In this document: in pieces, positions 1-13,526 of the stretch
How the letters are laid out: each line of letters begins with the position of its first letter
Position numbering within the stretch: position 1 is the first letter of the stretch
Virus record (IMG/VR): IMGVR_UViG_3300022701_000154
Location: 1-29,843 of that record
Length of the DNA: 29,843 nt
Direction: 5' to 3' (one strand)
Source: a virus
Translations under genes and position numbers: made by a program
Notes under the pieces: model-generated
Told to the model about the DNA's origin: nothing
What the model saw: the letters and a program-made list of their open reading frames with translations, nothing else
The model's database searches: none

Positions 1-3000
1 CAATCATCAGAAGTACCATCTTTTTTTCCACCCAATTTACATGATTTCTTTATGACAGGTTCTGTCATTTTTGGCATCCATGTTTTTATTCTTTCTTCAA
101 ACACAAATGTTGCATCTGGTTTTTTTCTTAATTGTGAATATGCTTTATTGATTTTCAACAAGTTAGGTTTACCCTTTTGTTCAATATGCCCATCCATAAA
201 ATAATTAGCAACACCTTCTTCTGGTGTACCAATCAATACAGCATCTTGACCAAATTTACCACCCAACGCAATAATCCATTCTTTAAAATCTTGAGTGTCC
301 ATACCCTCTGGTTTAGGTATGAAGAACGATTGTTCTTTAACATTTACTGTTTCACTTGCTTGACCTGTTTGTAATTCTTCCCAATGACCAATCAAATTTA
401 TAAAACCTGCTTGTTTGCTTTGAAGTTCTTTTGAAAGCATTTCATTTGACTGTTTATTTTGTTGCATATCATAGTCGTTACGATTTGCACTCATAATTGC
501 AAAATCGTTTTCCTTCATATGATTCAACAATCTATTGATACCTGCACCTGCTTCTGTTACCAATCCTTCTGAAACAAAATCAAATGCTTTATAATCTTGA
601 TCTTCAAACTCAATATCTGTTCCTATTTTCTCTTTCTTACCATCAACATAGTATAGGATGAAATTTCCCTTCTTACCGTATATAAACGCCTCCTGTTCGA
701 ACTTCTTTGCGATCATGGATACTATGTTAAAAAACTCTTTCGGTGTCAGAGAAGCCAGCTTTTTGATTATATAAGACTGTTCATGAGTATCAGTATCATT
801 GTCCCATTCACCAATACCAATTACATATTCAAACTTAAATTTATTTAGTAAATTTTTTAGTTCTTTTGATGCTTTATTATTGCGTTCATTATCCTCTAAT
901 TGATGTGGTGAAACAATTCCCACATAATCATCAAAAATATTTTCTAATTTATTTGCATCTTCATCAGAAACAATTGTTTGATCTTCTTCTAAAGACTTAT
1001 TATCTGATGGATTAACAGTTCCATGCTCAGTTCTATATAATGAAGTACCATCTTCGTTTGTCCATGTTTCTTTTTTATCTTCCAACACACTAACAATTCT
1101 ATTTGGTTCAATATCATTTGGACTAATCCATTCATATTCAACGGAATCCATTAAATCTAAACCATTTGTGTTGATTTTCAATATGACTTCATCATAATCT
1201 TCACCAGTTTCTTCTTCCCATTCTTCAATTCGTTCACCTAACCATTGATATAATGCTGTTTGAACATCATTAAGTGTTTTGAAAAGATAAACACCCTTCA
1301 TATCACCACTATCACCATAATCCTCTGGAACTCTTGCTTCCAATCCTTTCGATTTTATTTTTGGTAAGTTTTTTCTTCTTGTTACATGATATGCAAAATT
1401 TTCATTAACATCTTCATTTAAAGATTCAGCACCTATTTTATATTCATCTGATTCAGGGTCAGCACTACCATCAGTATGCCAATAAACCAAATCTTCTTTT
1501 ATAAGTCCAAAATTTTTCAACAAATTTTGAATATTAATTATCTTATTAAAGAAACCAATATCGTCTCTTGCAAATTGCATTGCTCTTTCAATGTTTTGTG
1601 AACTAATTAAATATCCTTTATATAGATTTGAAATATCATTAAGTAAATTTTTACTTACCTTTGGTAAACCTTCAATATATTCAACCGCTTTCTTTAAATT
1701 TTGATCACCAATGTCGTGATAATCATCCCATTCTTTAAGTTGTGTTACAACACCTTCATGATAGATTTTATTTATTTCTTTTGTAAGAAACGCATCACCC
1801 AATTCAAGTATTGAGTGTTCTCTTTCACCATAAGGATCATTAGAAATAACATTTTGATGATTTTGATACATTTTATATGTATCTATTGGTTGAGAAGTAA
1901 TATATTTTTTATTTAAGTATGGTTCAGGATGTATCTGATCTTTTAGATCAATTGTTTGTGCTATATATGGTTTTCCTTGACCTTGGAAAAACTCTTTCCA
2001 TACGTTTTTTGCTTCGGGTGTTACCTCATTTTTATGTCTACTTGGAATAAGACCTTTATTACCAGCAGCACTCATTCCAATTAAATATAAGAGAGGTCCG
2101 TACCCCTTTTTGGCTGCAATACTGACAATTTCCATCGCATCATTTTCTTCATTATATCTTGTTGCCATTCCACCAAGAATATAATCTTCCATTTCTTCCC
2201 AATCTTGATTATCAATTACGTCCACAATTCTTGGGTCATATAGATAATACATATCATTATCAATAACAAGACCTAAGTTGTTATAATCTGCAACACCTTC
2301 ATTAAGATCATCACCCTCTAAACCACCTTGTGAAACTGAGTTTGGTAATAATGCCCAACCAGCATAACCACCATCACGCATGTTATCTGTATCGACAAAA
2401 TTTTCTAATTCATCGTTATAGTTAACTTCTGCTTCATTAGTTCTATTATAATGAGAACTCCAAACATCTTGATTTAACCCATAATCAGTTAAAACCACAT
2501 CAGGTTGACCATTACGAATAACCTCTCCATAAGAAGAAATTCTGCCGAGATCACCAGCACTCATATCGTAATTTTGCATAAAAGTAACAATGCCAGAAGA
2601 AAATTCATTTTCCCAAAGTTCTTGTTCTAATTCTTTATCTTGACTAAATAACTTTCTTTGACCTCTGTTTTGTAATTCAAAATTTCTTAAAAATCTTTCT
2701 AAATCCCTAATATTGACACCAGTTATTTGTGTAAATCTATTTGGTGTTAATTTTTTTCCACGTTCAGCTATTAACCATTGTGCATCATCGTTTTGATCAA
2801 AATCAAATACTTGTGTAACAAAATCAGCAGCATAATAATCATTATAACCAAGTTCGATTTCTAATTCATTTTGAGAAAAACCTTTTGGGTTTTTTGCGAG
2901 TTTTAATACCTTATCATCGCCAAATTCATACACTATTCTTGCTGATCCTGATGCTATTCTTGGTAAATGTTCTTCGGCATATCTTTTACGTGCTGCAAAA

Positions 3001-3095
3001 GATCGTAATTGTTTGAATTGATCTGTATTGAAGTTACCTATTGCAGCTTCATCTAAAGACCAAATTTCTCTACTGATAAGTTCTGTTAAGTCCAT
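1..3095 (-). CDS. Multidomain 'polyvalent' phage protein, kinase-like/GNAT-like/ART-like/2x DUF3293-like (3' end outside window)
   Basis: An open frame of 1031 codons starts at the ATG at 3095 and reaches base 1 with no stop, so the C-terminus is missing. Residues about 48-215 resemble a reduced protein kinase: a glycine-rich GSARIVYEF, candidate lysine K65 in KVLKLA, and D204 in TDYG (DFG-like). Residues about 300-370 carry KKGYGPLLY, an acetyl-CoA-loop-like signature of a GNAT-like phage domain. Residues about 568-675 (YHVT, then KGVYLF, then a late I-x-P) resemble KptA/ADP-ribosyltransferase-like domains. Residues about 724-806 and 865-956 are two copies of a DUF3293-like unit (N-rich helix, G-x-W, E-Q-S-[YF], K-F-x-Q-[ED]-A). 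It is the first gene after a terminator. By analogy with described polyvalent proteins it may be packaged and injected with the DNA, which is inference. The open frame is certain; the kinase and DUF3293 resemblances are moderate; the ART and GNAT calls are tentative. Confidence 0.8.
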   Translation of the reverse strand, partial: MDLTELISREIWSLDEAAIGNFNTDQFKQLRSFAARKRYAEEHLPRIASGSARIVYEFGDDKVLKLAKNPKGFSQNELEIELGYNDYYAADFVTQVFDFDQNDDAQWLIAERGKKLTPNRFTQITGVNIRDLERFLRNFELQNRGQRKLFSQDKELEQELWENEFSSGIVTFMQNYDMSAGDLGRISSYGEVIRNGQPDVVLTDYGLNQDVWSSHYNRTNEAEVNYNDELENFVDTDNMRDGGYAGWALLPNSVSQGGLEGDDLNEGVADYNNLGLVIDNDMYYLYDPRIVDVIDNQDWEEMEDYILGGMATRYNEENDAMEIVSIAAKKGYGPLLYLIGMSAAGNKGLIPSRHKNEVTPEAKNVWKEFFQGQGKPYIAQTIDLKDQIHPEPYLNKKYITSQPIDTYKMYQNHQNVISNDPYGEREHSILELGDAFLTKEINKIYHEGVVTQLKEWDDYHDIGDQNLKKAVEYIEGLPKVSKNLLNDISNLYKGYLISSQNIERAMQFARDDIGFFNKIINIQNLLKNFGLIKEDLVYWHTDGSADPESDEYKIGAESLNEDVNENFAYHVTRRKNLPKIKSKGLEARVPEDYGDSGDMKGVYLFKTLNDVQTALYQWLGERIEEWEEETGEDYDEVILKINTNGLDLMDSVEYEWISPNDIEPNRIVSVLEDKKETWTNEDGTSLYRTEHGTVNPSDNKSLEEDQTIVSDEDANKLENIFDDYVGIVSPHQLEDNERNNKASKELKNLLNKFKFEYVIGIGEWDNDTDTHEQSYIIKKLASLTPKEFFNIVSMIAKKFEQEAFIYGKKGNFILYYVDGKKEKIGTDIEFEDQDYKAFDFVSEGLVTEAGAGINRLLNHMKENDFAIMSANRNDYDMQQNKQSNEMLSKELQSKQAGFINLIGHWEELQTGQASETVNVKEQSFFIPKPEGMDTQDFKEWIIALGGKFGQDAVLIGTPEEGVANYFMDGHIEQKGKPNLLKINKAYSQLRKKPDATFVFEERIKTWMPKMTEPVIKKSCKLGGKKDGTSDD

Positions 3096-10318: not shown

Positions 10319-10689
10319 ACATTTTTATATTTCTTCTTTTTTTTCAGTTTGCAGGATTTTGTGTCAAAGGTATAAATAAATTTTGTATTTTCAAAGATAT
10401 TTCTCTCTAAAACTTTTTTTGTGTTCATTGGAAATTCCCCGATAAACCAAAGAGCACATAAAATATTGTCAGGTAATATTGTAATTTTTTCACCAGTTTT
10501 ATCGTAACGTAAATCATATGAAAAATGTGTTAAATCATTTCTATTCATTAACTTGGTAGATAAAAAATCTATACATTCATTATCAATCATATCAATTGCA
10601 TCATTATTTTTCAAATTTAAAAAACTATATTTTGCATATATATCACCTAAACTTTCATAATAATTAGTTGCGAACCACACTGCTTCCAT
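10315..10689 (-). CDS. Hypothetical protein between helicase and polymerase (124 aa)
   Basis: No recognised family. The protein is mixed alpha/beta in composition with several aromatic residues (VWFATNYYESLGDIYAKYSF, ALWFIGEFPMN) and a strongly basic tail (KSCKLKKKKKYKNV) that could contact nucleic acid. The start at 10689 overlaps the end of the helicase gene by 26 bases, and the TGA stop overlaps the polymerase start (ATGA), so all three cistrons are probably coupled on one transcript. The position suggests a replication-accessory role, which is inference. A later Met at residue 34 would give a shorter product and avoid the overlap, but would break tight coupling to the helicase stop. Confidence 0.75.
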   Translation of the reverse strand: MEAVWFATNYYESLGDIYAKYSFLNLKNNDAIDMIDNECIDFLSTKLMNRNDLTHFSYDLRYDKTGEKITILPDNILCALWFIGEFPMNTKKVLERNIFENTKFIYTFDTKSCKLKKKKKYKNV

Positions 10690-13456
10690 ATTTTTCTTTT
10701 ATTTTTGCTATGACCTCACCAATAACTGATTCAGACACATTTGATTTGTAATCTTCATTATCGATTACTTTATTAATTTCTCTTCTTTTCCCTTCTATTG
10801 CCCAAAAAACATATTCATCTACTGTACCAGAAAAAAGCACCGCATATGCATTAACAACATCTTTTTGCCCTATACGATGTAATCTATCCATCGCTTGATC
10901 GAGTTCACCAACTGAATATGGTAGAGATATAATGAATATTTTACTTGCAGCAGTAAGAGTTAAACCATAATTACAAGTTTGAATTGAACCTAAAAATATT
11001 TTTGTTTTACCATTAGGGTTTTGAAAATCTTTCACTATTGCAGCACGATCTTCTACTGACACATCACCAGTATGAAGACCAGCAATGTCTTTATAATGTG
11101 CTTTTAATTCATTTAATGAATCTTTAAAGTAATCCATTATAACCACCTTTTCACCTTCATCCAATATTCTATCAATGAATTCTTTAAGAATGTGTGCTTT
11201 TAATGATGCAGTAAATTGTCTTAATCTAAGAATTTTTGTTAATGGATTTTCAATTTCTTCATTTATAAATTCATTTGCAATACCTTCTTCAATATCATTA
11301 TAAATAGATTGATTCTTACTGTCCATTTCAACCATAATCTTTTGAAATATCTTATCTGGAAGATCAGTGAGAACCTCTTTCTTTTTCTTACGGTGAGTAA
11401 ATGGTTCAATTTTATGATATAAACTTTCCAAATCTTCCATTGAAGGATTCTTTGACCACCCACCAAATGCGTCTGGATCATATTCCATACCAAGATAGTT
11501 CTTATAAAAGAAAGTTTTATTTGGGAAATCTAATGGTGATATTTGATTAAGCACAGTATAGAGTTCTTGTGATCGGTTGGGTGCAGGAGTACCTGTCATA
11601 AATATTTTCGATACCTTATTATTTTTAAAGATTTTATTTTTAAAAATTCTTTTAAAATTTTTATATGTATTAGATTTTGTATTTTTTAAACGGTGAGATT
11701 CATCACAAATTAAACAATCAATTTCTTTAATCCCCAACTCTTTGAACTTCTTATTCATCTTCTTTGAATCACTTGGATTGAAGTATTCATAGTTTACAAT
11801 GACATATTTAGATTCTTCTATTGAATAACGATTCTTATTCCAGTTAATTATATGTGCTTTTGAACCTTTGGTAAACTTTTCAACTTCATCATAATAGTTG
11901 AACTTCAATGAGTTAGGTGTTATTACAAAAACCTTTTCAAAATTATTCATTTCAACATATGAAATACTCGCAAGAGTATTGTGTGTTACAACGCAATTAT
12001 CTGTTAAATACAAATGATCTTCTGCTTCAACTAAAATACACTGCGCTTCCTTTTTACCAATATAACTTATTTCTTTGATTGCTCTATTTGGTAGATATTT
12101 TGTTGGTGGTACAAAACTATCTATTTTACGTTGTAATTTAAATGGAATGAATTGGGGTGGTAATTTAATTGTTATTCTGTAATATTTTCTTTTTTCACCT
12201 TTATACGTCAGCCATTTATCTTTAATTCTACCAATACCACCTAAACTTTGAACAATAAATTGAACATCATAAATTAATTTCTTAGATGCTAATGTTAATT
12301 CGACAATACTATCTTTTCTTGAATGACCATCCGTATCTAAAATACCTCTTAATAATTCAAGTCTTTGTTCAAGAGAACCTAATTTATAATCATTTGGTAT
12401 AAATTTAGTGTGTGAATTACAACCCTGTAAATTATATTGTTTTAATCCTTGATTTATATAATTATTTCTTCCATCAGAAGTTAAATAATAATCTTTATTA
12501 CTCTTTGATTGTAATTTTAATTTGTGGTTTTTTGGTAACAAACGTGTAACATTTGTTTTTATTTCTTCATCAATTGTAGTAAACGATATTGAATTTTTAA
12601 CTGTTAAGCCACCATCACCTAACAAACACCCTAATATATATGGATTAATTTTTAAATCTTTCTTTTTAAATTCAATTGGTTTTACAATAGGAATATAATG
12701 TTTATTATTACCATTTTTATATTGTAAACCATCGTTCATTATTTCACGAAGAGTTTTTGTTTGATAAGGATTATTTCTTTTATTTCTTGTTGCAGTGTTT
12801 ACATTCCATAAATGTTCATCACATGATTGTGCAGTAGTACCATCATTAAATTTTAATTCATAAATATCTTTTTCTCCTTGTGGAAAAACACCCAATACTT
12901 TTGTTGGTTTACCATTACTACCTATAACATAATCACCTATTTTTATATCACCCATTCTAACCCAACCATTAGGTGTAAGTAATTGAGAATCAATAGGATT
13001 GGCTTTCCCTAACCCCATATCGTGAGAAAGTAATGCATTACGCACCTTGTCAATAAACATAGTTGCAGTAACTTGGTGGGGATAAAGATTTATACCTTCT
13101 TTTAGTTCACGATGTACAACTTCTTGATATTTTTCATATTCTTCATCAAGAGTTTCTTTAAATTTTAACCAAACTTTTTTACTTTCTTCAAGTTGAATTA
13201 ATAATCTTGCCTTTTCTTTTTCATCAGCATCAATTTTTTTGATTTGATTTAAAAAGACATCACGATCATCAAAATCAAAATGAATTTTATTTGATCTTTT
13301 ATAAATTTTTATGATTTTGTATAAACCCTTAGTGGTTATTTCCCAACATCTATCATAGCTATTCCAAATACGTTGTTCTTTTGGTAAACTTTTAATTCGG
13401 TCTATGAGTTGGTCGTTTGGTTGGAAATAAACCCTATATTTGGATTTTCTTCCCAT
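10664..13456 (-). CDS. SNF2-family helicase/translocase with in-frame intein (930-aa precursor, about 588 aa after splicing)
   Basis: A superfamily 2 ATPase. Numbering starts at the Met at 13456. An N-terminal HARP-like region (about 8-60; YRVYFQ...RIWNSYDRCWEI) is followed by the Walker A motif DMGLGK, cut after K151 by an intein (152-493) and resumed with T494. Later motifs are DESH (585-588), GTPAPN (622-627) and QAMDRLHRIGQK (854-865), all typical of SNF2 proteins. A longer frame starts at 13492 (12 extra residues, MQTAPFLVSCVK), but the -7 promoter element ends at 13497, so transcription would begin at about that ATG. The Met at 13456 fits the Lys/Arg-rich start of the conserved region and leaves a leader of about 35 bases. 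Likely roles are fork remodelling, origin opening or replication-linked repair. Without splicing, Walker A is broken and the enzyme should be inactive. Confidence 0.95.
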   Translation of the reverse strand: MGRKSKYRVYFQPNDQLIDRIKSLPKEQRIWNSYDRCWEITTKGLYKIIKIYKRSNKIHFDFDDRDVFLNQIKKIDADEKEKARLLIQLEESKKVWLKFKETLDEEYEKYQEVVHRELKEGINLYPHQVTATMFIDKVRNALLSHDMGLGKANPIDSQLLTPNGWVRMGDIKIGDYVIGSNGKPTKVLGVFPQGEKDIYELKFNDGTTAQSCDEHLWNVNTATRNKRNNPYQTKTLREIMNDGLQYKNGNNKHYIPIVKPIEFKKKDLKINPYILGCLLGDGGLTVKNSISFTTIDEEIKTNVTRLLPKNHKLKLQSKSNKDYYLTSDGRNNYINQGLKQYNLQGCNSHTKFIPNDYKLGSLEQRLELLRGILDTDGHSRKDSIVELTLASKKLIYDVQFIVQSLGGIGRIKDKWLTYKGEKRKYYRITIKLPPQFIPFKLQRKIDSFVPPTKYLPNRAIKEISYIGKKEAQCILVEAEDHLYLTDNCVVTHNTLASISYVEMNNFEKVFVITPNSLKFNYYDEVEKFTKGSKAHIINWNKNRYSIEESKYVIVNYEYFNPSDSKKMNKKFKELGIKEIDCLICDESHRLKNTKSNTYKNFKRIFKNKIFKNNKVSKIFMTGTPAPNRSQELYTVLNQISPLDFPNKTFFYKNYLGMEYDPDAFGGWSKNPSMEDLESLYHKIEPFTHRKKKKEVLTDLPDKIFQKIMVEMDSKNQSIYNDIEEGIANEFINEEIENPLTKILRLRQFTASLKAHILKEFIDRILDEGEKVVIMDYFKDSLNELKAHYKDIAGLHTGDVSVEDRAAIVKDFQNPNGKTKIFLGSIQTCNYGLTLTAASKIFIISLPYSVGELDQAMDRLHRIGQKDVVNAYAVLFSGTVDEYVFWAIEGKRREINKVIDNEDYKSNVSESVIGEVIAKIKEKYGSSVVRN
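11978..13003 (-). mobile_element. Class 3-like intein with LAGLIDADG homing endonuclease, inserted at helicase Walker A (GK^T)
   Basis: 342 codons in frame. The first residue is Ala (ANPIDSQLLTPNGW), so the usual Cys1/Ser1 nucleophile is absent. The class 3 W-C-T signature is visible: Trp at the end of block B (DEHLW, precursor residue 217), Cys in block F (AQCILVEAEDHLY, residue 473), and Thr before the C-terminal His-Asn (VVTHN, residue 491). The +1 extein residue is Thr. Two LAGLIDADG motifs are intact: ILGCLLGDGGL (D281) and LLRGILDTDGH (D376), so the endonuclease is probably active or recently so. The ends give exact coordinates: GCC (13001-13003) to AAT (11978-11980). Removal restores DMGLGKT. 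Confidence 0.93.
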
Positions 13457-13496
13457 CTTTACGCATGAAACTAAAAATGGTGCTGTTTGCATAGTG

Positions 13497-13526
13497 CAAA
13501 TATACGAAAAAAAAGTGATTTGTCAA
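13497..13526 (-). promoter_or_regulatory. Bacteroidota-type sigma-A promoter for the replication cassette
   Basis: On the coding strand, TTG (13524-13526, within TTGACA) is followed after 19 bases by TATATTTG (13497-13504), a full match to the Bacteroidota -7 consensus TAnnTTTG with its -33 TTG. It occupies almost the whole short gap between the 218-aa gene and the helicase. Expected transcription start is about 13489-13492. It should let the unmodified host RNA polymerase transcribe helicase, 124-aa and polymerase genes. Confidence 0.82.

Follow-up and report, generated by a model that had tools for sequence, protein, structure and literature searches.

According to the article that cites the original work, the Snf2 intein of Deinococcus radiodurans is an experimentally studied prototype of class 3 inteins (Brace et al., 2010, cited in PMC3196547); as described there, it resides in a Snf2-family helicase, like the intein reported here, and its host is a bacterium. 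A phage origin was proposed for the class (PMC3196547). A survey from 2020 comprised 1701 class 3 inteins, 82.5% of them with LAGLIDADG motifs (PMC7891396), and in mycobacteriophages class 3 inteins with P-loop insertion and active endonucleases were described (PMC5050341). Two class 3 DnaB inteins, DnaBi1 of Mycobacterium smegmatis (6bs8) and the one of M. chimaera (6rix/6riy), share with the present intein Trp at block B:12, Cys at F:4 and Thr at G:5 (W-C-T), as well as His at B:10, Ala at position 1, the terminal His-Asn and the HINT fold. The insertion site of DnaBi1 is likewise reported to be a P-loop, but DnaBi1 is devoid of an endonuclease domain, whereas the present intein contains a LAGLIDADG domain. 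Position B:7 is Asp in DnaBi1 and Cys in the present intein, and the +1 residue is Ser and Thr, respectively. In gp233 of Pseudomonas phage PhiPA3 (L194), a protein annotated as SNF2 helicase from an unrelated jumbo phage, an intein 36% identical to the present one is inserted at GTGK^T (the caret marks the junction) and shows the same Ala1, CDEHLW, QC and VTHN^T. An intein of the same type is inserted at GMGK^T in a Bacteroides phage protein whose annotation is terminase.

The window analyzed here, a stretch of 29,843 nucleotides of viral DNA (IMG/VR record IMGVR_UViG_3300022701_000154), contains such an intein within a helicase gene (Table 1). Counted from the first ATG, the open reading frame encodes 942 amino acids, and the precursor matches the Pfam domains SNF2-rel_dom (1.3e-21) and Helicase_C (4.6e-12) and a DNA helicase family in PHROG (7e-86); the host protein thus belongs to the SNF2 family, with both domains present and its Walker A motif split by the intein. 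The intein corresponds to precursor residues 164-505, is in frame without any stop codon, and lies between the Lys and the Thr of Walker A (DMGLGK^ANPIDS...CVVTHN^TLASI), the residue following it being Thr. Since the P-loop is split, the ATPase should be blocked before splicing. The intein matches Pfam LAGLIDADG_3 with 1.7e-10. All sequence details of the first-pass annotation, i.e., Ala1, the W-C-T set, the terminal His-Asn, the +1 Thr and the Asp of both LAGLIDADG motifs, were found again. Its W217, C473 and T491 are the right residues, but their numbers are 12 below the count from the first ATG (W229, C485 and T503), an offset consistent with Met13 as the start. This alternative start, at about position 13456, is plausible. 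Directly before the first ATG, TATATTTG occurs at 13497-13504, which would be compatible with the later start provided that the phage uses Bacteroidota-type promoters.

Table 1. Features of the intein-containing helicase gene, in positions of the window
Feature	Description	Positions	Strand	Remark
Precursor gene	phage SNF2-type helicase with intein	10664..13492	-	Pfam and PHROG matches
N-extein	163 aa, Walker A ...DMGLGK at its end	13004..13492	-	
Intein, class 3-type	342 aa, Ala1 ... Thr340-His341-Asn342	11978..13003	-	
Cys61	block B:7	12821..12823	-	
His64	block B:10	12812..12814	-	
Trp66	block B:12, W of W-C-T; block B DEHLW	12806..12808	-	
Predicted homing-endonuclease domain	residues 115-300, approximate limits	12104..12661	-	
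LAGLIDADG motif 1	LGCLLGDGG, Asp130	12611..12637	-	invariant in 23-row alignment
LAGLIDADG motif 2	LRGILDTDG, Asp225	12326..12352	-	invariant in 23-row alignment; Pfam LAGLIDADG_3
Cys322	block F:4 (AQC), C of W-C-T	12038..12040	-	proposed first nucleophile
Thr340-His341-Asn342	blocks G:5-G:7	11978..11986	-	T of W-C-T; putative Asn cyclisation site
C-extein	437 aa, Walker A Thr (+1) as first residue	10664..11977	-	

The alignment to the solved class 3 DnaB inteins 6bs8 and 6rix places Trp66 at B:12, Cys322 at F:4 and Thr340 at G:5 with none of them displaced, and His64, His341 and Asn342 likewise fall on published block positions; for the M. smegmatis intein these are reported as His65 (B:10), Trp67 (B:12), Cys118 (F:4) and Asn139 (G:7) (PMC5222942). 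Trp66, Cys322, Thr340, His341, Asn342 and the Asp of both LAGLIDADG motifs are invariant among 23 aligned relatives. Among solved sequences, class 3 DnaB inteins come closest (E about 1e-10), and the gp41-1 inteins rank behind them. In a tree of 119 rows drawn from the relatives, the class 1 row is set apart on a very long branch. Judged by sequence, class 3 membership is well supported, and so is the earlier proposal of a class 3-like intein with a complete LAGLIDADG endonuclease in the Walker A motif of a phage SNF2 helicase. We assign a probability of roughly 0.93 to the reading that this intein is a mobile class 3 element with a LAGLIDADG homing endonuclease at that site. By analogy with the family, Cys322 would attack the peptide bond preceding Ala1, together with His64 and Thr340, the N-extein would be transferred from Cys322 to Thr+1, and cyclisation of Asn342, assisted by His341, would leave the exteins joined and GLGKT restored. 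The endonuclease would cut helicase alleles without intein at the P-loop site, resulting in the intein being copied in; the intein would be a selfish element, and splicing would spare the host gene the cost of carrying it. Class 1 chemistry is ruled out here by Ala1.

Class 1 inteins carry Thr at position B:7 (TxxH), where the present intein has Cys61, a neighbour of the active site. A wider set, assembled from viral contigs and bacterial genomes, comprises 172 distinct full-length relatives; 74 of them, including the present intein, have Cys at B:7 and 62 have Asp. Class 3 inteins were characterized with Gly or Asp at this position, or Ser in the case studied by the authors themselves, and Cys B:7 is not among the residues functionally characterized in class 3 (PMC7891396). 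Such a Cys could make the intein conditional, i.e., splicing in the P-loop would be restrained, for example by oxidation of Cys322 with the nearby Cys61, and the helicase would be switched on only under certain infection conditions. In the mycobacterial class 3 intein DnaBi1, a disulfide formed by the catalytic Cys is inhibitory (PMC6195587); however, the partner residue, Cys48 of DnaBi1, is not conserved, with Ile aligned in the present intein, and B:7 is variable: at the same SNF2 site L005 has Gly, and other relatives have Asp, Thr, Gly or Ser. Moreover, constitutive splicing was suggested for class 3 inteins with endonuclease (PMC7891396). We consider a conditional intein very improbable, and it would be a long shot that Cys61 sits beside Cys F:4, the catalytic residue, and pairs with it in a reversible disulfide acting as a redox- or infection-stage-dependent helicase switch in phage P-loop class 3 inteins. 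The idea that splicing could gate replication found no support, as there was no sign of conditional splicing or of a role in replication.

The mobile class 3 intein has also to be weighed against a decayed one, which despite its apparently complete sequence would have lost splicing or cutting, the dead helicase being tolerated by the phage. A pseudogene intein of the class 3 clade, Arth_1007, is on record (PMC3196547), and the window is a metagenomic fragment. However, the intein contains not a single stop codon and every catalytic residue, and its AlphaFold model is of high confidence with a mean pLDDT of 92. Foldseek retrieved as top matches VMA/PI-SceI inteins with endonuclease (E from 5e-19), followed by the class 3 DnaB inteins 6riy and 6bs8. 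In comparisons with six relatives, NG86 dN/dS is lowest in the HINT (splicing) part, at 0.14-0.24; the endonuclease has values of 0.24-0.39 and the C-extein of 0.15-0.29, with extein silent sites near saturation. Splicing part, endonuclease and helicase are under purifying selection, which also speaks against decay, and a decayed intein is in our view highly improbable.

The IMG/VR contigs L002, L003, L028, L029, L034, L036, L004 and L005 carry an intein 62-77% identical to the present one in the same gene and at the same site, and these inteins form one clade; residue 1 is Cys in L002 and Met in L005 versus Ala here. Unlike in the present precursor, the gene in L004 and L034 contains an additional intein, which is of class 1 type. 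It has Cys1, CTPDH in block B and ...VYDLE...LVSN^C, and is inserted in the C-extein at helicase motif II (DE^C), which in the precursor of the window is an uninterrupted DES; a single phage gene can thus carry two kinds of intein, class 3 at Walker A and class 1-type at Walker B.

Divergence at codon level was counted among codons for the same amino acid, with the helicase codons far from the intein as the reference. Relative to L002 (0.25 vs. 0.41, p=5e-5), L028 (p=0.002) and L036 (p=0.04), divergence is lower in the intein than in the helicase, while the lower silent divergence of the intein relative to L003 and L029 is not significant. This hints at movement between related phages, and codon bias could also explain it. 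As to co-conversion, codons at most 40 from the junctions were not less diverged than distant ones and thus gave no signal of it. The first-pass annotation had suggested a search for intein-free homologues; four homologous helicases in other viral contigs (L026, L030, L031 and L032) have an uninterrupted GLGKT/S and are missing exactly this insert, which confirms the insertion site. The intein-free L026 and the intein-bearing L002 have the same IMG/VR sample number (3300011118); since identity across the DNA they have in common is only about 67-76%, they represent different phages and not alleles of one population. The locus adds one more clean class 3 intein with a homing endonuclease for which occupied and empty homologous genes are available.

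Relatives were detected by tblastn in 779 phage records and in more than 580 stretches of viral contigs. These numbers, together with the Pfam matches and the intein-free alleles with precise junctions, argue that the intein is not a chance pattern. W-C-T is kept in 170 of the 172 distinct relatives; the search seeds included the conserved ...TH end and endonuclease motifs, making the census a biased intein sample in which the counts of Thr G:5 and His G:6 are shifted upwards, whereas Trp and Cys lay outside the seeds of two of the searches, including that of the viral contigs. Of the two exceptions, one comes from a contig in which stops interrupt the intein; the only stop-free one, the L065 intein at a different kind of site, carries the class 1 set of Cys1, Thr B:7, His B:12, Asp F:4 and Cys+1. 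In the remaining relatives residue 1 is free, being Ala in 134 and otherwise Ser, Cys, Val, Glu, Gly, Asp, Leu, Phe, Pro or Met, and with Ala1 in the present intein a nucleophile at this position is not obligatory, as expected for class 3. In the 119-row tree residue 1 changed between nucleophile and non-nucleophile at least 13 times, which is not to be expected of a residue responsible for the first splicing step. The relatives thus represent a natural experiment, in which residue 1 flips and Cys F:4 stays, supporting the class 3 scheme across viruses. That the intein belongs to class 1 or class 2, with W-C-T incidental and splicing via residue 1 or direct attack by +1, can be dismissed as exceedingly improbable: some relatives do have Cys or Ser at residue 1, but Cys F:4, Trp and Thr are kept in 170 relatives with residue 1 freely variable, and reports of class 2 inteins are confined to KlbA (PMC3196547).

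Of the relatives that differ from the present intein, the closest (77%), at L002:4001-5026, combines Cys1 with an intact W-C-T at the same site. By its sequence alone it would be a natural hybrid of class 1 and class 3 signatures, and it was counted against the reading as a mobile class 3 intein. Inteins with W-C-T also occur in L143, L166, L174, L179, L184, L190, L191 and L193, which are loci of bacterial, mostly actinobacterial, genomes; their insertion site, MRGR^TL, is conserved and is not of the GK type.

The present intein adds to a large family that is already well described and is otherwise ordinary, given the 1701 class 3 inteins surveyed, the 779 phage records, the same P-loop position in PhiPA3 and the Deinococcus Snf2 prototype. 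Its interest had been seen in a minority class; within this family of phage inteins, however, membership in class 3 is the rule. The assignment to a Bacteroidota phage was not supported either: the leaders in the window are A-rich without Shine-Dalgarno sequence, which is merely compatible with such a host, boxes of the Bacteroidota promoter type TAnnTTTG were not enriched, and the window contains no tRNA genes for host assignment. Protein matches show no single focus and include phages of Salinibacter, Bacteroides, Oceanotoga and others. A large open reading frame at 3-3095 on the minus strand, which runs off the window, has a C-terminal S-adenosylmethionine lyase-like domain (Pfam 1.8e-16); S-adenosylmethionine lyase is used by some phages against restriction.
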